Source of the DNA: a virus | Direction: 5' to 3' (one strand) | Virus record (IMG/VR): IMGVR_UViG_3300041409_000823 | Span: 1 to 21,328 of that record | Length of the DNA: 21,328 nucleotides | In this document: positions 5,111-21,069 of the stretch, piece by piece | Layout of the letters: every line of letters starts with the position of its first letter | Numbering within the stretch: the stretch's first letter is position 1 | Notes under the pieces: model-generated | Seen by the model: only the letters and a program-made list of their open reading frames with translations | Database searches by the model: none | What the model was told of the DNA's origin: nothing | Made by a program: the position numbers and the translations under genes

Positions 5111-5144
5111 ACTTTCACGCTAAACGGGAATCAGGAGGAACCAC

Positions 5145-5663
5145 ATGCCCGACAAGACCGAACCGACCGAGCCCAGTCGCCGCGTTCGACTGCGGACCGC
5201 CTCGACCGACAAGAAGAAAGCCCTCGACCACTATCAGACGCTGCGCCGGAGCGGCCGGGTCAAAGACGCCGTCGTTATCGCCGAGGACCACGACGGCAGC
5301 ATCACCGTCCTGGGCCAGATGCTGACGCCCGACCAGGTCGGGCAGCTGCTCCTGATCGCCGCCCACTCCCTGGTCGCGATCGACAAGGCGAGGCACCTGC
5401 CGAAGCTGGAACCGCACCAGGAGCCCGAGCGCCGCGGGGAACACAACGGCAGCAAGCCACGCGCGAAGGAGATCGTGACCGACGCGGACGGGATCCTGCA
5501 GCCGCCGCCCGGCGAGAACATCATCTCATGCGGCGAATGCAACCACCCGCGCTGGCACGTCCTGCACTACACGGCGACGGACCAGCACAGCCGCATCGCC
5601 TGCGCCCATTGCGGCAACGAGGTGAAGAATATCGAGATCTTCCACGCGGAGGGACATGCATGA
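5145..5663 (+). CDS. Two-part small protein with C-terminal zinc ribbon
   Basis: This 172-residue protein starts at ATG 5145 with a perfect AGGAGG within GGAGGAACCAC directly before the start. The N-terminal part (residues 10-95) reads VRLRTASTDKKKALDHYQTL, GRVKDAVVIAEDHDGSITVL, then MLTPDQVGQLLLIAAHSLV, an alpha/beta arrangement with no known catalytic motif. After a charged linker, the C-terminus carries CGECNHPRWHVL (about residue 129) and CAHCGNEV (about residue 155), a zinc ribbon. It opens a chain of six rightward genes to 7196, divergent from portal with only 34 bases between. Together this could be a fusion of two small phage proteins. Function unknown. Confidence 0.8.
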   Translation: MPDKTEPTEPSRRVRLRTASTDKKKALDHYQTLRRSGRVKDAVVIAEDHDGSITVLGQMLTPDQVGQLLLIAAHSLVAIDKARHLPKLEPHQEPERRGEHNGSKPRAKEIVTDADGILQPPPGENIISCGECNHPRWHVLHYTATDQHSRIACAHCGNEVKNIEIFHAEGHA

Positions 5664-6034
5664 AGCAGCCCACCAACAGCGAGAAGCGCCCTGGCATCGG
5701 CTACACGGACCCCAACGCCCTAAGCTGGGACGTCTACGACCGCCTGCCCCACGCGATCCGCGAAGTGCTCTGGGGCTCGACGGTTTCAATCAACCCGATA
5801 TCGGTCCGCGACATTCTCCGCGAGGCCGACCAGGACGAGACGATCCGCTGCCTGCTGGGATCGATCTATCACGAGTTGCAGACGTTCGACCGCGAGCACG
5901 AGCAGCGCCACGGATACCGCCTGCCGGCGATGGCAGCCCGCGTGGTGCCCCTCCGCTACCTGTCGGAGACCAAGCCGGCCAAGCCGAGCCGCAAGCGCCA
6001 CGAGATCATCCGACGCCGCAGGAGGCATCGGTGA
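5660..6034 (+). CDS. Small hypothetical phage protein
   Basis: The start ATG at 5660 overlaps the previous stop by four bases (ATGA), with GGAGGG about 6 bases upstream. The 124-residue protein contains NALSWDVYDRLPHAIREVLW and VSINPISVRDILREADQDET, helical segments that I associate with uncharacterised phage accessory proteins in which a short helical bundle precedes a basic tail. It ends in a strongly basic stretch (RKRHEIIRRRRRHR), which could bind nucleic acid or be mere low complexity. No enzyme motif is visible. It is coupled to the 5145 gene and followed after 25 bases by the GapR-like gene. Confidence 0.75.
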   Translation: MKQPTNSEKRPGIGYTDPNALSWDVYDRLPHAIREVLWGSTVSINPISVRDILREADQDETIRCLLGSIYHELQTFDREHEQRHGYRLPAMAARVVPLRYLSETKPAKPSRKRHEIIRRRRRHR

Positions 6035-6059
6035 GCGACCCAGCCCCGAAGGAGCCCAC

Positions 6060-6344
6060 ATGAGCGACGCACCGACAGCCACCGCCGAACCCGATCCCGC
6101 ACCCGACTCTGTCAACGGCATCGCCAGCGAGCGCCTCCGAAGCATCGTCGACCGCATCGAGCGCCTGGAGGAAGAACGCAAAGCCCTCGGCGCCGATATC
6201 AAAGACATCTACTCCGAAGCGAAGTCGGCCGGCTTCGACGTCAAAACCCTCCGGCAGCTGATCCGCGTGCGTAAGCAGGAGGCAGCCGAGGTCGAGGAAC
6301 TGGAGACCCTGCTCGACGTCTACCGCCGCGCTCTGGGGATGTGA
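6060..6344 (+). CDS. GapR-family (DUF2312) DNA-binding protein
   Basis: GapR is an alphaproteobacterial nucleoid-associated protein that binds overtwisted AT-rich DNA ahead of moving polymerases and stimulates type II topoisomerases. This 94-residue protein matches the family through its core: LRSIVDRIERLEEERKALGA, then DIKDIYSEAKSAGFDVKTLR, then QLIRVRKQEAAEVEELETLL and the C-terminal LDVYRRALGM. An Ala/Pro-rich N-terminal tail of about 22 residues precedes it. The length is normal. The start has CCGAAGGAGCCCAC directly upstream, the start-associated motif. It overlaps the next gene by four bases (GTGA). In a phage, it may aid replication or transcription of the phage DNA, which is inference. 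Confidence 0.9.
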   Translation: MSDAPTATAEPDPAPDSVNGIASERLRSIVDRIERLEEERKALGADIKDIYSEAKSAGFDVKTLRQLIRVRKQEAAEVEELETLLDVYRRALGM

Positions 6345-6643
6345 CGATGCACAGCAGGATCGAGCGAGTGGCCGCCGCTATCGCAAATCGCCGAGCCGGC
6401 CGCCGAGGTTCCCCGGAAGTCACGAACGTCCTCGACATCCTAAAGAGCTTCTCCGGAGGAAAACTCTACCTTGAGGTGATGGACGATGCCCGCGCCGCGA
6501 TCGAGGCGATGCGGGAGCCGACGGATGCGATGGCATTCGCGGGCGCAAACGCGTTGGCGATGGAGATGCAGGCGCCAAGCCCGACGCTGATGGCGGTTGG
6601 CTTCGTTGCCATGATCGACGAAGCCCTGAAGGAACCGACATGA
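6341..6643 (+). CDS. REPT-motif small phage protein (paralogue 1)
   Basis: This 100-residue protein belongs to a small phage family seen three times in this window. It has the N-terminal helix HSRIERVAAAIANRR, the central DDARAAIEAMREPTDAM and the C-terminal GFVAMIDEALKEPT. The next gene (6640) shares this plan and 14147 shares the REPTEAM centre. The GTG at 6341 overlaps the GapR stop; an in-frame ATG at 6347 is an equally possible start. The last codons, for KEPT, also form the start-associated motif of the next gene (AAGGAACCGAC then ATG). Function unknown; such proteins are common in phages and lack catalytic residues. Confidence 0.8.
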   Translation: MTMHSRIERVAAAIANRRAGRRGSPEVTNVLDILKSFSGGKLYLEVMDDARAAIEAMREPTDAMAFAGANALAMEMQAPSPTLMAVGFVAMIDEALKEPT

Positions 6644-6909
6644 GCAGCATGATCGAGCGCGTGGCGCGGGCGATATGGCGTCAAAGCACTGGTCCGGCAC
6701 ACTGGGACGATTGGGATCTGTTCGCCCCGAACGCCTGGGGCCGCAGGCGAACCATGGCACAGGCCAGAGCCGCGATCGAGGCGATGCGCGACCCGACAGA
6801 GGCAATGACCTTCGCAGCCTTCGAATTCCTGCCCGGGTCATGGGAACATGCTGACATCAGCCGCGCCTGGAACGCTGGCATCGACGAAGCCCTGAAGGAG
6901 CCGACATGA
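6640..6909 (+). CDS. REPT-motif small phage protein (paralogue 2)
   Basis: An 89-residue protein that starts MSSMIERVARAIWRQSTGPA and is a diverged tandem paralogue of the 6341 product: both have a short N-terminal IERVA helix, a central AAIEAMR(D/E)PT(E/D)AM block and the ending (A/M)xIDEALKEPT. The start overlaps the preceding stop by four bases (ATGA), and its ribosome-binding site AAGGAACCGAC is formed by the KEPT codons of the previous gene. Its own ending again forms AAGGAGCCGAC for the next gene. Middle segments such as HWDDWDLFAPNAWGRRRTM differ, so the pair is old or comes from separate sources. Function unknown. Confidence 0.8.
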   Translation: MSSMIERVARAIWRQSTGPAHWDDWDLFAPNAWGRRRTMAQARAAIEAMRDPTEAMTFAAFEFLPGSWEHADISRAWNAGIDEALKEPT

Positions 6910-7196
6910 CGATTACCCGCGAACCACCGTGGCTCTGCGTCGCCTGCGGCTACCTCTCGAATTCCGTCGCCCCCGCAGACCCCAACGCACCCGCCACGCC
7001 ATCCGACGGCGACAACACAATCTGCCTCAACTGCGGATGGACCTACGTGAGACACGGCACGCGCTGGCTACCCATGACAGCCGCCGAGCGCGCCAGCCTG
7101 ACGCCCGACGAGCGACGCGACCTGGAACACGCCGAGGCCGCCAGGGTAGCCGCAAACCTCCCAGACCTGACACGCCGACGCGGAGGCCGCGCCTAA
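6906..7196 (+). CDS. Small zinc-ribbon protein
   Basis: A 96-residue protein with two cysteine pairs, CVACGYLS (residues 11-14) and CLNCGWTYV (residues 40-43), separated by an acidic Pro-rich loop, the layout of a zinc ribbon. The rest is a helical charged region (MTAAERASLTPDERRDLEHA) and a basic tail. The start overlaps the previous stop (ATGA) and uses AAGGAGCCGAC as ribosome-binding site. The gene is the last of the rightward island and meets large terminase head-on: its TAA (7194-7196) overlaps the terminase stop (TAG on the minus strand, 7195-7193). Function unknown. Confidence 0.8.
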   Translation: MTITREPPWLCVACGYLSNSVAPADPNAPATPSDGDNTICLNCGWTYVRHGTRWLPMTAAERASLTPDERRDLEHAEAARVAANLPDLTRRRGGRA

Positions 7197-9509: not shown

Positions 9510-9692
9510 ATGCGTGAATTCGACTGCCCGGACTGCGGCTACCACGTCCACAGCTTCGTCCACGAACCAAACGGACCAGCGCCAGAGCGCTGCGTCTGCT
9601 GCCAGTGGCTGCGCGATAAGGTCACAGACGAAGCCGAGCGGGAGCGCCTGCGCCGCCTCTTGACGCCGGCGCAGGCGGAGACCTCTCGATGA
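9510..9692 (+). CDS. Small zinc-ribbon protein, 60 aa
   Basis: The sequence is MREFDCPDCGYHVHSFVHEP followed by a second pair, CVCCQWLRDK (residues 28-31), a compact zinc ribbon, then a charged helix EAERERLRRLLTP. Small MREFDCPDCG-type proteins are frequent in alphaproteobacterial phages but have no assigned function. The start is fixed by CCGAAGGAGGAACCAGC directly upstream, a variant of the start-associated motif with a full AGGAGG. It opens a three-gene rightward island and is divergent from the gene at 9437. Confidence 0.8.
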   Translation: MREFDCPDCGYHVHSFVHEPNGPAPERCVCCQWLRDKVTDEAERERLRRLLTPAQAETSR

Positions 9693-9871
9693 GCAGCAAC
9701 GAGCGCGTGATCACCGAGCGCCAGGGGACCAAAGTCCGAATCCTGATTGAGTGCCGGGACGAATACCACGCGATCAAAATCTACGACGAGCTGACCCGCA
9801 GCGCCGAAATGGGCACCATCTGCATCCATTTCGCAAACAAACCGACCAAGGAACCACCATGCCAACCCTGA
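9689..9871 (+). CDS. Small alpha/beta protein, 60 aa
   Basis: The ATG at 9689 overlaps the preceding stop by four bases (ATGA). The protein reads MSSNERVITERQGTKVRILI, ECRDEYHAIKIYDELTRSAE, MGTICIHFANKPTKEPPCQP: two strands around one helix. The final KEPP codons contain AAGGAACCACC, which is the ribosome-binding motif of the next gene at 9859, so the two genes overlap by 13 bases. No known family was recognised. Confidence 0.75.
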   Translation: MSSNERVITERQGTKVRILIECRDEYHAIKIYDELTRSAEMGTICIHFANKPTKEPPCQP

Positions 9872-10134
9872 ACAAGCAATACGGCAAGGTGCCAGATCCG
9901 GAGAAGCGGATCGAAATGCTCTACCTCTGGATCGCGATCCACCCGAACGGAGCCGAAGGCATCATCGCCGCCGACCTCGAGGTCATGCCCGGAGAGATCC
10001 GACACACCCCGCTAATGAACAGCCGCCGGGACGGCGCGGAGGCTATGCGATCCATCGCCCTCGGTCTCGGCGCGGCCTCCGATCCGCCGGTCCGCGTAGA
10101 ACTACGCGCGTTCGCCCGCGTAGATACCCAGTGA
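9859..10134 (+). CDS. Small phage protein, 91 aa
   Basis: The ATG at 9859 sits directly after CCAAGGAACCACC, and the same bases encode the end of the previous gene. The protein begins MPTLNKQYGKVPDPEKRIEM and contains LYLWIAIHPNGAEGIIAADL, then GAEAMRSIALGLG. No catalytic motif is visible. The gene ends one base before the convergent small-terminase candidate (10136). I do not recognise a named domain; the composition and length are those of an accessory phage protein. Confidence 0.75.
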   Translation: MPTLNKQYGKVPDPEKRIEMLYLWIAIHPNGAEGIIAADLEVMPGEIRHTPLMNSRRDGAEAMRSIALGLGAASDPPVRVELRAFARVDTQ

Positions 10135-10641: not shown

Positions 10642-10675
10642 CCGAATTCGGTTGAACGTTGATGCGGATTAGACG
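10642..10675 (+). promoter_or_regulatory. Divergent control region upstream of cassette copy 1
   Basis: The gap between 10618 and 10737 has a 10-base palindrome CCGAATTCGG (10642-10651), a -35-like TTGAAC (10652-10657) and CGGATTAGACG (10665-10675), the last identical to 11 bases of repeat 1 at 20988-20998. CCGA-type bases 10642-10658 match 12864-12880 at 14 of 17 positions, so both cassette copies have a similar element upstream. Confidence 0.4.
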
Positions 10676-10719: not shown

Positions 10720-10985
10720 ACCGAAGGAACCACCCGATGACCGAGCGCGACACTCACGGCAACATCCTCTCCACCGCCGCCATCAACGCCCGCGACCACG
10801 CGCGCGCCGCGCGCGCCAACACCCTCACCGCCTACCGGATCGCCCGCGAGGCCCGCGACGCGGCCCTCGCCACCGGCGCCACTGAGGCGGCCGCGGAGGC
10901 CGCCGGGAAGGCCGCCGCCGAAAGGTGGTGGAACGAGTGACCACCACCGCCTGCCCAAACGTCAGACCCCAACCGAAGGAACCAC
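10720..10985 (+). repeat. 266-bp direct repeat, copy 1 (gene cassette)
   Basis: These 266 bases match 12922-13187 except for three substitutions (C/T at Leu, G/A at Gly codons, A/T after the stop). The repeat begins and ends with the 13-base motif CCGAAGGAACCAC (10721-10733 and 10973-10985), so a complete gene plus the ribosome-binding site of the next gene is duplicated. Confidence 0.97.
10737..10940 (+). CDS. Duplicated Ala-rich 67-aa protein, copy 1
   Basis: The start ATG at 10737 follows CCGAAGGAACCACCCG. The protein reads MTERDTHGNILSTAAINARD, then HARAARANTLTAYRIAREAR, then DAALATGATEAAAEAAGKAA and AERWWNE: one long Ala-rich helix with a conserved polar start and a Trp pair at the end. 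The second copy at 12939 encodes exactly the same protein although the DNA differs at two silent sites, which suggests selection on the protein or a recent duplication. Function unknown; no membrane span or enzyme motif. Confidence 0.8.
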   Translation: MTERDTHGNILSTAAINARDHARAARANTLTAYRIAREARDAALATGATEAAAEAAGKAAAERWWNE

Positions 10986-10989
10986 GCAG

Positions 10990-11865
10990 ATGAAACCGAC
11001 CAAGCCGATCGACCTGATCGAGAGCCTGCCAATGACCGACCTCGTCCGCATCCACAACACGCTGACCGCGAACAAGGTCCGCAAATTCGAAAACCGGACC
11101 AAGGCCGCCCGCCGGATCAACGACCTGCTGAAAGGCCAGAAGCTCTGGTTTGAGCAGGCCGCCGCCGCCGCCGGCGTGATCACGACCGAGGAAGCCGAGG
11201 CGCGGATCAAGGAGATCCAGGAGATGGAGGCGAAGCTGGCCGACGACGGGTGGAACGACCCACTGCCTCCCGGCAGCAAGGGACGCGGCCAGGCCGCGCC
11301 GCAGGAGAACCCGGACCCGACCGACCCGATCCACGAGGACGAGCCGACCGAGCAGGAGCAGCAGGCCGAGCAGACCCGCCAGGAGGCCGAGGACGAGCCC
11401 GGCGAGGACGAACACCTGGCAGAGCTGGTGGCCAACTCGGAGCGGCGCGAGGCGGAGCAGGCACAAGCCGACCGCAAACCGCCCCAGCCGCTGCTGACCT
11501 ACCTCATGGTCCAGGTCACTACCCAGGAATGCACCGACCTGGGCAACAAGATCGCCACCCTGCTCCGCCGGCCAGTAACCATCATGGACGGCCGCACCCA
11601 GCGCACCCTCGAGGTGATCGAGCCGCCGGCGAGGAAACCCGCCGCCCGCGAGAACGGCATGACGGTCAACCAGCGTAAGATCATCGAACTCTGCGAGCGC
11701 CCCGAAGGCGCCACAGGAAAGGAACTGGCCGAAGGCTGCGGATGGCCCAGTATCGCCGCACGCGCCACCTGCCAGAAGCTCGCCGATCGGTTCGGATACA
11801 CCCTGACCGAGAAGCCCAAGACCGCCGGACGCGGGATCAGCTTCTACCTGACCCCCGAGACCTGA
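10990..11865 (+). CDS. DUF3489-like winged-helix protein
   Basis: A 291-residue protein in three parts. The N-terminus (residues 14-60) has MTDLVRIHNTLTANKVRKFE NRTKAARRI, the short domain often found with DUF3489. A long Glu/Gln/Asp-rich linker follows (about residues 78-160). The C-terminus (about residues 222-291) reads MTVNQRKIIELCERPEGATG, KELAEGCGWPSIAARATCQK, LADRFGYTLTEKPKTAGRGI and matches the DUF3489 winged helix (RPEGAT then a helix-turn-helix with GW). It is likely a DNA-binding regulator; the target is unknown. The start follows CCGAAGGAACCACGCAG. It lies just right of cassette copy 1 and is followed by a terminator-like hairpin. Confidence 0.8.
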   Translation: MKPTKPIDLIESLPMTDLVRIHNTLTANKVRKFENRTKAARRINDLLKGQKLWFEQAAAAAGVITTEEAEARIKEIQEMEAKLADDGWNDPLPPGSKGRGQAAPQENPDPTDPIHEDEPTEQEQQAEQTRQEAEDEPGEDEHLAELVANSERREAEQAQADRKPPQPLLTYLMVQVTTQECTDLGNKIATLLRRPVTIMDGRTQRTLEVIEPPARKPAARENGMTVNQRKIIELCERPEGATGKELAEGCGWPSIAARATCQKLADRFGYTLTEKPKTAGRGISFYLTPET

Positions 11866-11872
11866 GCGGACC

Positions 11873-11907
11873 AAGGCGCCGGCCGGACTGACCCAGCCGG
11901 CGCCTTT
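11873..11907 (+). terminator. Hairpin after the DUF3489-like gene
   Basis: The arms AAGGCGCCGGC (11873-11883) and GCCGGCGCCTT (11896-11906) pair perfectly over 11 bases with a 12-base loop, directly after the stop at 11865. Only three T residues follow, so it may be an attenuator or a weak intrinsic terminator. Confidence 0.6.
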
Positions 11908-11936
11908 CCGTCAACCGAGCAGAAGGAACCACCCAA

Positions 11937-12161
11937 ATGCCCACCGTCCTCATAACACGCGACGCCCTCGCCGCAATCCGCGGAATGGCGACCCTCGATT
12001 TCATCGACACCAGCTCGCCGGGCCCGGACGGCCTGCGGCGCATCCCGCTCGATCGCGACACCGTGGCCCGCCTCGCCAGCGCCGCGATGCCGGGCGAGAC
12101 CCTCTCCGACGTCGTGACCAGGCTGGCCGCCTACCGAGCATCCAACGGGAGAACGAACTGA
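11937..12161 (+). CDS. Small protein, possible ribbon-helix-helix regulator
   Basis: The ATG at 11937 follows CAGAAGGAACCACCCAA. The 74-residue protein reads MPTVLITRDALAAIRGMATL, DFIDTSSPGPDGLRRIPLDR, DTVARLASAAMPGETLSDVV. The segment from RRIPLDRDTVARL to PGETLSDVVTRL resembles the strand-helix-helix of VapB-type (DUF217-like) antitoxins, in which a conserved GES/TxSDV precedes the last helix. No toxin-like partner follows; the next gene, overlapping by one base, encodes a DUF7768-like protein. Assignment is therefore tentative. Confidence 0.7.
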   Translation: MPTVLITRDALAAIRGMATLDFIDTSSPGPDGLRRIPLDRDTVARLASAAMPGETLSDVVTRLAAYRASNGRTN

Positions 12162-12520
12162 TGCGCCGAGTGATCCTCGAAAGCCCGTATGCGGGCGAGA
12201 TCGCAGACAACATCCGATACGCCCGCGCCTGCGTCCGCGATTCCCTCCGACGCGGCGAGGCACCCATCGCCTCGCACCTGCTCTATACCCAGGAAGGCAT
12301 CCTCGACGACAACGACCCCGCCGAGCGCCAATGGGGGATCGAGGCAGGACTGGCATGGCGCGCGGTCGCGGAGGCGACCGTCGTCTACACCGACAGAGGC
12401 ATCTCCGATGGAATGCGGCACGGCATCAATGCCGCCGTCCAATCGGGCATCCCGGTCGAGATGCGCCAACTCGCCGACGTAGCCCACGTTCCAGCAGCCG
12501 AAGGCACCAAGAACGCCTGA
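12161..12520 (+). CDS. DUF7768-like protein
   Basis: The 119-residue protein starts MRRVILESPYAGEIADNIRY and continues ARACVRDSLRRGEAPIASHL, LYTQEGILDDNDPAERQWGI and EAGLAWRAVAEATVVYTDRG, ISDGMRHGINAAVQSGIPVE. This agrees with the DUF7768 family, which looks like a small Rossmann-type (SLOG or nucleoside deoxyribosyltransferase-like) fold: an N-terminal strand ending SPYAG, a central helix with GEAP.ASH, and a late GIS.GM..G.. motif. Binding of a nucleotide or nucleoside is likely by fold, but no reaction is proven. The start shares a base with the previous stop (TGATG). It lies between the two cassette copies next to the Tad2-like gene. Confidence 0.82.
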   Translation: MRRVILESPYAGEIADNIRYARACVRDSLRRGEAPIASHLLYTQEGILDDNDPAERQWGIEAGLAWRAVAEATVVYTDRGISDGMRHGINAAVQSGIPVEMRQLADVAHVPAAEGTKNA

Positions 12521-12534
12521 GACACCGACGCGCC

Positions 12535-12566
12535 CTGGCGGAGCGGGAAACACCCCGAGCCGCCAG
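12535..12566. terminator. Hairpin between convergent genes
   Basis: The structure is CTGGCGG (12535-12541) paired with CCGCCAG (12560-12566), then a symmetric AG/AG internal loop, then CGGG paired with CCCG around AAACAC. It sits between the convergent DUF7768-like and Tad2-like genes and could end transcription from both sides, although no T run is present. Confidence 0.45.
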
Positions 12567-12590
12567 AGGCCCGCCCAGGCCGCCGGACGC

Positions 12591-12833
12591 CTACAACGGA
12601 TCCGCCAACACCCAATCCCGCGCCAGCAGGTCAGTCTGCGAGCAGAGCCACGGAACGAGCGAACCATCGACCGTCTGCATCTGCACATACGGCAGCAGGT
12701 TAGCGTCGCCCCGATGCCAACCGGACACGAACGACAGCGACATTCCGCGACCGTTCCAGCCAGCCCGGCAGACCTTCCGGCCAGCCTGAAGCTCATCCAC
12801 GGCCCAACCGATCCCGTTCCCAGCGCCTGACAC
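12591..12833 (-). CDS. DUF2829 protein, Tad2-like (possible Thoeris anti-defence)
   Basis: DUF2829 is the fold of Tad2, a phage protein that traps the cyclic ADP-ribose-type signal of the Thoeris defence system. The 80-residue protein has the family's features: AVDELQAGRKVCRAGWNGRG (the conserved A.L..G..V.R.GWNG block), MSLSFVSGW, then LLPYVQMQTVDGSLVPWLCS and QTDLLARDWVL. GTG 12833 is preferred because GGAGG lies five bases upstream; another GTG at 12845 lacks a ribosome-binding site. It is the only leftward gene between the two direct repeat copies. Whether it binds a nucleotide signal, and which one, cannot be read from sequence. Confidence 0.85.
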   Translation of the reverse strand: MSGAGNGIGWAVDELQAGRKVCRAGWNGRGMSLSFVSGWHRGDANLLPYVQMQTVDGSLVPWLCSQTDLLARDWVLADPL

Positions 12834-12863
12834 TATGGCCTCCACATTTGATGCAAATTCGAT

Positions 12864-12880
12864 CCGATTTCAGTTGACCG
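12864..12880 (+). promoter_or_regulatory. Promoter-like element upstream of cassette copy 2
   Basis: This segment agrees at 14 of 17 bases with 10642-10658 upstream of copy 1 and contains TTGACC (12874-12879), a -35-like hexamer 65 bases before the start. No clear -10 follows. It lies outside the 266-bp repeat, so the similarity is separate evidence of shared regulation or of an older, diverged repeat end. Confidence 0.35.
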
Positions 12881-12921
12881 AAAAGTGAAAATCCTTCACA
12901 TAGGGAGCGCCAACCAGGCAC

Positions 12922-13187
12922 ACCGAAGGAACCACCCGATGACCGAGCGCGACACTCACGGCAACATCCTCTCCACCGCCGCCATCAACGCCCGCGACCA
13001 CGCGCGCGCCGCGCGCGCCAACACCCTCACCGCCTACCGGATCGCCCGCGAGGCCCGCGACGCGGCCCTTGCCACCGGCGCCACTGAGGCGGCCGCGGAG
13101 GCCGCCGGAAAGGCCGCCGCCGAAAGGTGGTGGAACGAGTGACCACCTCCGCCTGCCCAAACGTCAGACCCCAACCGAAGGAACCAC
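12922..13187 (+). repeat. 266-bp direct repeat, copy 2 (gene cassette)
   Basis: Second copy of 10720-10985, offset by 2202 bases, with three substitutions. It ends in CCGAAGGAACCAC (13175-13187) just before a different downstream gene, so the boundary motif marks the exact edge of homology on both sides. Confidence 0.97.
12939..13142 (+). CDS. Duplicated Ala-rich 67-aa protein, copy 2
   Basis: Identical in amino acid sequence to the 10737 product, with the same MTERDTHGN start, long Ala-rich helix and AERWWNE end. Two synonymous changes separate the coding sequences. The start follows CCGAAGGAACCACCCG. Downstream is the 13192 gene rather than the DUF3489-like gene, so the same cassette sits in two different contexts. 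A small regulatory or structural protein is possible; no motif allows a firmer statement. Confidence 0.8.
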   Translation: MTERDTHGNILSTAAINARDHARAARANTLTAYRIAREARDAALATGATEAAAEAAGKAAAERWWNE

Positions 13188-13191
13188 ACCC

Positions 13192-13428
13192 ATGAGCAAG
13201 CCCAAAGGCACCGTCCACCGCGCCACCCTAACCAAACTCCGTGCCCTCTACCGCGAGACATGGTCCCGCGAATGGCCGTTTCGCGACGACTATCTGGTCG
13301 AACTGTGGGACGAGACGCGGGTCATCTAGATCAACGACAAGGGGAGCCCCCGCGTCCCGCCCGATGAGATGCGCAAGCATTGCACCGAGTTGATGCGGGA
13401 ATGCGACGAGTTCACCGCCGCCGCCTGA
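13192..13428 (+). pseudogene. Small phage gene interrupted by in-frame TAG (13327-13329)
   Basis: The ATG at 13192 follows CCGAAGGAACCACACCC. The first 45 codons read MSKPKGTVHRATLTKLRALY, RETWSREWPFRDDYLVELWD and ETRVI, then TAG. The same frame continues for 32 sense codons, INDKGSPRVPPDEMRKHCTE and LMRECDEFTAAA, to TGA at 13426. Both halves are charged and helical and read as one protein of 78 residues. One base change (for example CAG to TAG) explains the break. It may be a decayed gene, a sequence error or a readthrough site. No domain was recognised. Confidence 0.6.
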
Positions 13429-13449
13429 ACCCCGCACGAGGACGAGCCA

Positions 13450-13593
13450 ATGACCGACGCGCAACTCGACGGGATCATCTGGCTCGCCCTCGTCAACGCC
13501 GAGGACCGCCGGGCCCGCGCCCCAGAGCGCAACCACGCCAGACTCTGGATCCGCCGAGCCCTCTGGACCCTGCGCGGCCGCCGAGCCGCCTAA
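13450..13593 (+). CDS. Small basic protein, 47 aa
   Basis: ATG 13450 follows GAGGACGAGCCA and the frame ends at TAA 13591-13593. The sequence is MTDAQLDGIIWLALVNAEDR, RARAPERNHARLWIRRALWT and LRGRRAA: a short amphipathic helix with Trp residues and a basic end. It is too small for family assignment. Its spacing to the neighbours (21 and 16 bases) and the ribosome-binding site support expression. Confidence 0.6.
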   Translation: MTDAQLDGIIWLALVNAEDRRARAPERNHARLWIRRALWTLRGRRAA

Positions 13594-13609
13594 CCCCACG
13601 GAGACCGTC

Positions 13610-13876
13610 ATGACCGAGCGAAAAGACTTTCCGACCATCTATCACGGCGTTCCGCAAGACGATCAGGACACGCGTCTCATCGACGCTGCCCTACAGGTTA
13701 TGTCCGAAACGCTGAACTCACTGCCGCCAAATCTCGGATTGCGCATGATCTGCAGTTTCGTCCTGACTGCCTGCTGCTCCCAGAACGACCCAACCGCAGT
13801 GTTACGCGCCATTAACCGTAACGTCGTGCCCGCGATCGAGGCCGCCATCGCCGAACCGAAGGCACCAATGCAATGA
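13610..13876 (+). CDS. Small hypothetical protein, 88 aa
   Basis: The protein starts MTERKDFPTIYHGVPQDDQD and continues LNSLPPNLGLRMICSFVLTA and RAINRNVVPAIEAAIAEPKA. CGGAGA lies 5-6 bases upstream of ATG 13610. The region has visibly lower GC than its neighbours. The MTER start is shared with four other genes in this region although the rest of the proteins are unrelated. Its last codons (EPKAP) contain CCGAAGGCACCA, a diverged start-associated motif for the gene at 13873, and its stop overlaps that start (ATGA). Function unknown. Confidence 0.7.
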   Translation: MTERKDFPTIYHGVPQDDQDTRLIDAALQVMSETLNSLPPNLGLRMICSFVLTACCSQNDPTAVLRAINRNVVPAIEAAIAEPKAPMQ

Positions 13877-13953
13877 CCGAGCGCAACCCGATCCCCTACT
13901 GCCTCGCCCACCTGACGCAACTCGGCGCGGCGGTAAGAGGGAGGCGAGCGTGA
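13873..13953 (+). pseudogene. Truncated duplicate of the 14147 gene
   Basis: This 26-residue frame, MTERNPIPYCLAHLTQLGAA then VRGRRA, matches the first 21 residues of the 14147 product (MTERSPIPACLSHLTQRDAA V). It then ends at TGA 13951-13953, overlapping the GTG of the next gene. It appears to be the left remnant of a duplication into which the 13950-14150 gene was inserted. It may still serve as a leader peptide coupling translation to 13950. Confidence 0.65.
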
Positions 13954-14150
13954 GTTACGATTACAACAAGCGCACCTACAATGTTTCTCCAATGCCAGGA
14001 CAAGAGATAACCATCGACGGGAAACGCGCGATCATTGTTCGCCCGAATGGTGACCCACATTATTTGCGCGTTCGTATGGAGGGCCAGCGGTACACGTCGA
14101 ATGCTCATCCCACATGGGAAGTCGATTACACTCCGGAGACTAAACCATGA
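13950..14150 (+). CDS. Small beta-rich protein, 66 aa, low GC
   Basis: The GTG at 13950 overlaps the preceding stop (GTGA) and has GGGAGG 6 bases upstream. The protein reads MSYDYNKRTYNVSPMPGQEI, TIDGKRAIIVRPNGDPHYLR and VRMEGQRYTSNAHPTWEVDY, with alternating hydrophobic residues that suggest a small beta barrel or SH3-like fold. Its codons are AT-richer than the surrounding genes, so it may be a recent arrival. It lies exactly between a truncated and a full copy of the MTER-PIP gene. No family was recognised. Confidence 0.7.
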   Translation: MSYDYNKRTYNVSPMPGQEITIDGKRAIIVRPNGDPHYLRVRMEGQRYTSNAHPTWEVDYTPETKP

Positions 14151-14569
14151 CCGAACGCTCACCAATTCCCGCGTGCCTTTCGCATCTGACCCAACGCGAC
14201 GCTGCGGTAATAGCGCGGGCGCTGGAGGAAGCGGACGTGCATCACCCACGCGAACCGACCGAAGCCATGATAGATGCGATTCATTCAGTGCATCGGCCAG
14301 GATTTGCTGTCACCTGGTATAAAGTTTGGACAACCATGTATGATGCTTGGGATCGTGAGCGTCGCGCCCTGATCCCCACGCCACCCGCCCCCGCGCCCGA
14401 CGATGCACCAAGCCACCCGCCGCCGACGACCGCGATCCGCGCCATCATCGAGCGCGCCGCCCAACGCATCGTGGCCGGATCCAGCCACGCTTTCATCATG
14501 GTCCGAGCAGCCGAAGCCGAAGCCGCCGAGCAGGAGATCGCCGCGATCGAGCGCGAAAGCCAGCGGTGA
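14147..14569 (+). CDS. REPT-motif phage protein (paralogue 3)
   Basis: The 140-residue protein starts MTERSPIPACLSHLTQRDAA, then has VHHPREPTEAMIDAIHSVHR, WYKVWTTMYDAWDRERRALI, a Pro-rich linker and a C-terminal helical part (AIRAIIERAAQRIVAGSS). The REPTEAM centre is shared with the 6341 and 6640 products. The C-terminal 60 residues have no match there, so it may be a fusion. ATG 14147 overlaps the preceding stop (ATGA). Function unknown. Confidence 0.75.
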   Translation: MTERSPIPACLSHLTQRDAAVIARALEEADVHHPREPTEAMIDAIHSVHRPGFAVTWYKVWTTMYDAWDRERRALIPTPPAPAPDDAPSHPPPTTAIRAIIERAAQRIVAGSSHAFIMVRAAEAEAAEQEIAAIERESQR

Positions 14570-14778
14570 GCCCCTACAACCTCCAGGCCGCGCTGGACGA
14601 AATCGGCATGAACCAGACAGACCTCGTCCGGTTCATGCGGAAACACGGCGACGATCGCCCGCACGAGACGATCCGCCGGACTGTGGGGAACTGGTGCCGC
14701 GGCGCGACGCGCGTGCCGGGGGAGATGCGGGTACTTGTTCGGATCCTTCAGGAGAGACAAGGAGCCGCTCATCAGTGA
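14566..14778 (+). CDS. Small helix-turn-helix protein
   Basis: The GTG at 14566 overlaps the previous stop (GTGA). The 70-residue protein reads MSPYNLQAALDEIGMNQTDL, VRFMRKHGDDRPHETIRRTV and NWCRGATRVPGEMRVLVRIL. This is the five-helix XRE-type pattern: a helix, then MNQTDLVRFM as the first HTH helix, then the recognition helix near HETIRRTVGNW and a VPGEM.VLVRIL end. It probably binds DNA as a repressor or regulator of phage genes. The final 146 bases lie antisense to the C-terminal end of the DNA methyltransferase gene. Confidence 0.75.
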   Translation: MSPYNLQAALDEIGMNQTDLVRFMRKHGDDRPHETIRRTVGNWCRGATRVPGEMRVLVRILQERQGAAHQ

Positions 14779-20974: not shown

Positions 20975-21069
20975 TTTCCGGAAATTCCGGATTAGACGGA
21001 GGCATCTGAGCCGTAACTTCCGGATTAGATGCGCGCTGCCAAAACCGTAGATTCCGGATTAGATGCGCG
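20975..21069. repeat. Three iteron-like repeats, TTCCGGATTAGA
   Basis: TTCCGGATTAGA occurs at 20985-20996, 21018-21029 and 21052-21063, spaced 33 and 34 bases (about three helical turns). Copies 2 and 3 extend to 25 bases (21011-21035 and 21045-21069), with CCGTA before and TGCGCG after the core; only two positions differ. A palindrome TTTCCGGAAA (20975-20984) abuts copy 1. The array lies upstream of the leftward genes starting at 20763 and could be operators or a replication origin. Confidence 0.8.

Follow-up and report, generated by a model that had tools for sequence, protein, structure and literature searches.

Recent duplication of a gene together with its start-associated motif in an SAS-like island of an alphaproteobacterial phage

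A unit consisting of a start-associated motif and the gene behind it was found to have been duplicated recently in an SAS-like phage island. The window (the whole stretch of DNA analysed: IMG/VR record IMGVR_UViG_3300041409_000823, 21,328 bases, which looks like a fragment) holds the 266-bp unit twice at an offset of 2202 bases, at 10720-10985 and 12922-13187, with 263 of 266 positions identical. The earlier note had described such a pair with three substitutions, identical 67-residue products and only silent coding differences, and this was confirmed in each respect: the substitutions fall at 10868 (C/T) and 10907 (G/A), both silent, and at 10946 (A/T), which is intergenic. They leave exact runs of 148, 38, 38 and 39 bp between the copies, far above chance. 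The shared block begins one base 5' of a motif, reaches exactly to the end of the 3' motif and is flanked by unrelated sequence on both sides, so that the claims of a motif-bounded homology and of different neighbours also held. Downstream, the block runs on for 32 bp beyond the stop codon and closes with the final base of the motif that follows; of the upstream region (roughly 75-100 bp) before the first motif, it includes one base only. Each copy is the first gene of a + strand run behind a divergent - strand gene, the small terminase for copy 1 and a Tad2-like gene for copy 2, and the DNA upstream of the two copies is unrelated. The features concerned are as follows.

10737-10940, + strand: 67-aa gene, copy 1; an ORF of no known family, predicted two-helix protein
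12939-13142, + strand: 67-aa gene, copy 2; identical protein
10721-10733, + strand: motif CCGAAGGAACCAC, exact match; 5' boundary of copy 1, with the ATG 3 nt downstream
10973-10985, + strand: motif CCGAAGGAACCAC; bounds copy 1 on its 3' side and serves the 291-aa gene as ribosome-binding site
12923-12935, + strand: motif CCGAAGGAACCAC; 5' boundary of copy 2
13175-13187, + strand: motif CCGAAGGAACCAC; bounds copy 2 on its 3' side and serves a 45-aa gene (13192-13329) as ribosome-binding site
10990-11865, + strand: 291-aa gene that follows copy 1; C-terminus weakly similar to DUF3489, short of the cut-off
12591-12845, - strand: Tad2-like (DUF2829) gene, next to copy 2 on its upstream side and divergent from it; Pfam PF11195, E=5.5e-20

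The window comes from a temperate alphaproteobacterial phage (with terminase, portal, integrase and methylase genes), and its host was probably Acetobacteraceae-like, since the bacterial relatives of the terminase were best in Roseomonas-type Acetobacteraceae. NusG-like, integrase, ParB-like, methylase, small and large terminase and portal genes lie on the - strand; the terminases and the NusG domain were named by family match, and the integrase, ParB-like, methylase and portal genes were read from the sequence. Four distant relatives (L003, L004, L005 and L013; TerL 59-76% identity) were available for comparison. The order NusG, integrase, ParB/methylase, TerL, portal is conserved in L004 and, minus the methylases, in L005. 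Between the - strand late genes of the window lie + strand islands of small genes at 5145-7196, 9510-10134 and 10737-14778. L004 has its terminase and portal genes side by side, and the islands are missing around portal, TerL and methylase, so that they are found in one genome and missing from a relative at the same place. L005 does have an island between portal and TerL, a shorter one: two window genes have homologues there, oriented alike, the motif is missing, and the gene content differs from that of the window. Most island genes had no relatives among the collected loci, none were found via the 291-aa and 88-aa genes, and Rfam and tRNA searches of the window gave no matches.

Several island genes were recognised by family. 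The Tad2-like gene (12591-12845, -; Tad2 being Thoeris anti-defence 2) sits in an accessory island, as does a GapR-like DNA-binding protein (6060-6344, +; PF10073, E=1.3e-30), whose relatives, annotated as DUF2312 or UPF0335, occur in several alphaproteobacterial phages. A DUF7768 gene (12161-12520, +; E=8.4e-33) also resembles the PHROGs nucleoside 2-deoxyribosyltransferase family; many phage contigs carry relatives, up to 77% identical, and have little else in common. Two other repeats were seen. The first, an older and partial duplication (13856-13954 / 14133-14227), runs from the ribosome-binding site into the gene and stops there; one member encodes a truncated version, 26 aa long, of the beginning of gene 14147-14569 and lies ahead of that gene. 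The tandem paralogues at 6341-6643 and 6640-6909 are 41% identical as proteins and 97% identical in their last 30 nt, where the codons for the common C-terminus LKEPT* also supply the next gene's Shine-Dalgarno sequence.

Apart from the block boundaries, strong copies of the motif start at 11920, 9845, 5132 and 715.

11920-11932, + strand: motif variant CAGAAGGAACCAC, before gene 11937-12161
9845-9857, + strand: motif variant ACCAAGGAACCAC, before gene 9859-10134 in the second + strand island
5132-5144, + strand: motif variant CAGGAGGAACCAC, before gene 5145-5663, the first gene of the portal/TerL island
715-727, + strand: motif variant GGAAAGGAACCAC, before gene 729-860

The core AGGAACCAC was counted eight times on the + strand, against 0.18 copies expected there under a second-order Markov model, and not once on the - strand; each of the eight is followed within 12 nt by an ORF of 35 codons or more. 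Because each exact 13-mer was copied with its gene, the four of them amount to two independent sequences; when the two duplicated copies of the core were removed, 6/6 were still start-associated. Among 63 loci scored for a start-associated 9-mer, the window ranked first. The motif occupies the Shine-Dalgarno position, within a few nt of the ATG. AAGGA within CCGAAGGAACCAC is the Shine-Dalgarno core; CCG and ACCAC, which flank it, have no pairing partner in the usual end of the 16S rRNA. The main job of the motif is most likely translation initiation, as an extended ribosome-binding site, and a phage or host factor possibly reads the bases outside the core. To our knowledge, no such repeated translation signal has been described in this phage group.

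A host-wide ribosome-binding context for AAGGAACCAC was rejected for nine candidate host genomes. In these alphaproteobacterial genomes, which carry related terminases, only 0-8 copies were counted per 3-6.6 Mb, which makes the sequence a habit of the phage; at gene starts it was absent from the records of the four distant relatives. The exact motif followed by ATG was found in 66 stretches of viral contigs with one match each, about what, by our estimate, base composition alone could give at that collection size; a shorter form again gave single matches among the matches listed. One apparently unrelated phage contig (L128, IMGVR_UViG_3300019889_000044) has three GAAGGAACCAC starts before small genes, near a terminase-like ORF, and similar sites can therefore arise elsewhere.

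The closest known parallel to the motif is provided by the Start-Associated Sequences (SAS) of cluster K mycobacteriophages, 13-bp asymmetric sequences that usually lie 3-7 nt ahead of the start codon and reach past the bases paired with rRNA (PMC3203893, Pope et al. 2011); a 2025 survey still called for experiments on their function (PMC12699233). Like them, the window motif is a 13-bp asymmetric repeat in one orientation that overlaps the Shine-Dalgarno site a few nt before the ATG (8/8 core copies), has conserved bases outside the rRNA pairing, precedes non-structural genes and is rare in the candidate host genomes checked. Unlike them, it belongs to an unrelated phage and host and reads CCGAAGGAACCAC rather than GGGATAGGAGCCC, with more than two deviations by inspection where the SAS consensus allows at most two. 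Its variants are commoner, it is carried by accessory islands interleaved with late genes, and it was not conserved in L003, L004, L005 or L013, all distant relatives. Inverted repeats of 17 bp accompany about half of SAS sites; among the repeats listed by a general search, no such pair stood at the motif.

Whether phage mosaicism proceeds via short conserved boundary sequences or by chance illegitimate joints is an old question, and the window offers one recent duplication in which both joints lie within a repeated translation signal. Short conserved boundary sequences have been proposed to mediate mosaicism, although most mosaic boundaries lack them (PMC3029335). The motif resembles such sequences in being short, repeated and placed at gene boundaries, where it could allow recombination between genomes that are unrelated elsewhere; it differs from them in being a ribosome-binding site, with one event alone supporting its use in recombination. 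The islands likewise recall morons, accessory genes inserted between phage genes (PMC3029335), in that opposite-strand accessory genes stand between late genes and are missing from L004, whereas the duplicated unit carries a ribosome-binding site and no shared promoter, each copy having its own upstream region. A few relatives with the same island would make the boundary question directly testable.

The duplication had been put forward in the earlier note as direct evidence that the motif acts as a boundary for the exchange of whole genes. Both junctions do lie inside the motif, the pattern predicted by recombination at short repeats, but the wording was too strong: if breaks may fall anywhere between neighbouring genes, both would land in the motif with P about 0.035-0.045. 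This value is suggestive rather than direct evidence, because identity through the motif is expected whichever gene follows, and edge identity does not locate the crossover, because any two motif-bearing genes stay identical through the motif. A special role of the motif in gene swapping is possible.

Cluster K served as a control on this argument. Four K1 mycobacteriophages (Adephagia, Anaya, Angelica and CrimD) were compared, giving 146 unique homology ends; those contributed by different pairs are only partly independent of one another. Nine ends fell at SAS-bearing starts against 1.7 expected (5.2x), and 50 at other gene starts against 5.7 expected (8.8x); breaks in cluster K favour gene starts generally and not motif-bearing starts in particular. 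An initial comparison without the gene-start control had given a 3-4-fold excess near SAS, and the control is therefore needed: a boundary motif must be weighed against ordinary gene starts, which draw breaks at least as much. Since cluster K is another phage group with another motif, this is a control on the inference and no refutation for the window phage. As a separate observation, in the cluster K loci L417-L420, nine homology ends and no homology starts were counted at SAS-bearing starts, against 25 and 25 at other starts; at homology ends the SAS remains with the upstream shared side.

The favoured mechanism, to which we give about an even chance, is a recent duplication by short-homology recombination with crossovers in the repeated ribosome-binding site. 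Rightward accessory-gene islands are inserted between leftward late genes, and many of the accessory genes carry CCGAAGGAACCAC or a variant as an extended ribosome-binding site within a few nt of the ATG. On this reading a 252-bp unit (motif plus 67-aa gene) was recently copied into another site, where a different upstream region precedes it, and crossing over most likely took place inside 13-17 bp repeats acting as short homology, whether by strand annealing or template switching or through an excised 252-bp circle reinserted at another motif. This mechanism is preferred because the junctions are exact, the motif is start-associated and both block ends lie in motifs; weighing against it are the single event, the cluster K breaks, which show no preference for motif-bearing over other starts, and the chance that motif identity at the block edges predates the event. 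A broader idea, in which accessory motif-plus-gene cassettes recombine at the motif as a modular docking site, is considered unlikely; if true, insertion, loss or copying of a gene behind any promoter could take place with its translation signal retained. The main competitor to short-homology recombination is ordinary illegitimate duplication at gene boundaries, in which the motif would have had no part in the exchange. Breaks between genes would survive because both genes are spared, and the position of the motif at the boundary would simply reflect its function as ribosome-binding site. Cluster K gene-start breaks occur with or without SAS, and more without (8.8x vs 5.2x); the second island duplication (13856-13954 / 14133-14227) ends mid-gene; and the L005 island differs in gene content with no motif there. 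All of this speaks for ordinary duplication, but it sits less easily with a block that spans the 32 bp from stop codon to motif end and one base upstream (P about 0.04), and we hold this alternative to be credible though somewhat unlikely.

The two copies could also be cousins, brought together when a 2.2-kb block from a related phage (67-aa gene, 291-aa gene, DUF7768 and Tad2-like genes) was inserted by homologous recombination, the donor's own 67-aa copy giving rise to flanking direct repeats. The structure seen, 2202 bp bounded by direct repeats, fits this history, as does the strong difference in island genes between relatives, and the 1.1% divergence of the copies is compatible with either history. 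The donor gene must, however, have had the same motifs on both sides, and no donor was found among viral contigs, genomes, phages and plasmids; such an import appears improbable. Least credible, and in our judgement very unlikely, is an assembly artefact in which two strain variants, each with other neighbours of a single gene, were joined through the common 266 bp. The record is an IMG/VR metagenome fragment, and repeats of such length can be misjoined by short-read assemblers, but the assembler kept two sequences because three positions separate the copies, and the same motif style is seen on both sides and elsewhere in the window.

The 67-aa protein had no match in Pfam, PHROGs or PADLOC and no relatives in the viral contigs, genomes, phages and plasmids searched. 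It is predicted to be a two-helix protein, a single-sequence AF2 model placing helices at residues 3-45 and 50-66 (mean pLDDT 87.9). That all three substitutions are silent or intergenic (P about 0.03) weakly supports selection keeping both copies. A strict scan, which was uninformative, gave no strict sigma-70 promoter at the cassette, and terminator-like sites were near chance level. One further site distinguishes the two copies.

10665-10675, + strand: CGGATTAGACG, candidate operator-like site; lies ahead of copy 1, with no counterpart ahead of copy 2

Its presence before copy 1 alone suggests that the same 67-aa gene is expressed under two controls. The exact sequence CGGATTAGAYG has only four sites in the window, the other three forming an array at 20988-21065 with a spacing of 33/34 nt. 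Of 421 loci, one other has a match, not counting L001, itself a part of the window. These sites are candidate operators or candidate binding sites for replication or recombination proteins. The three array sites are contained in a direct-repeat array of three units at 20978-21069.
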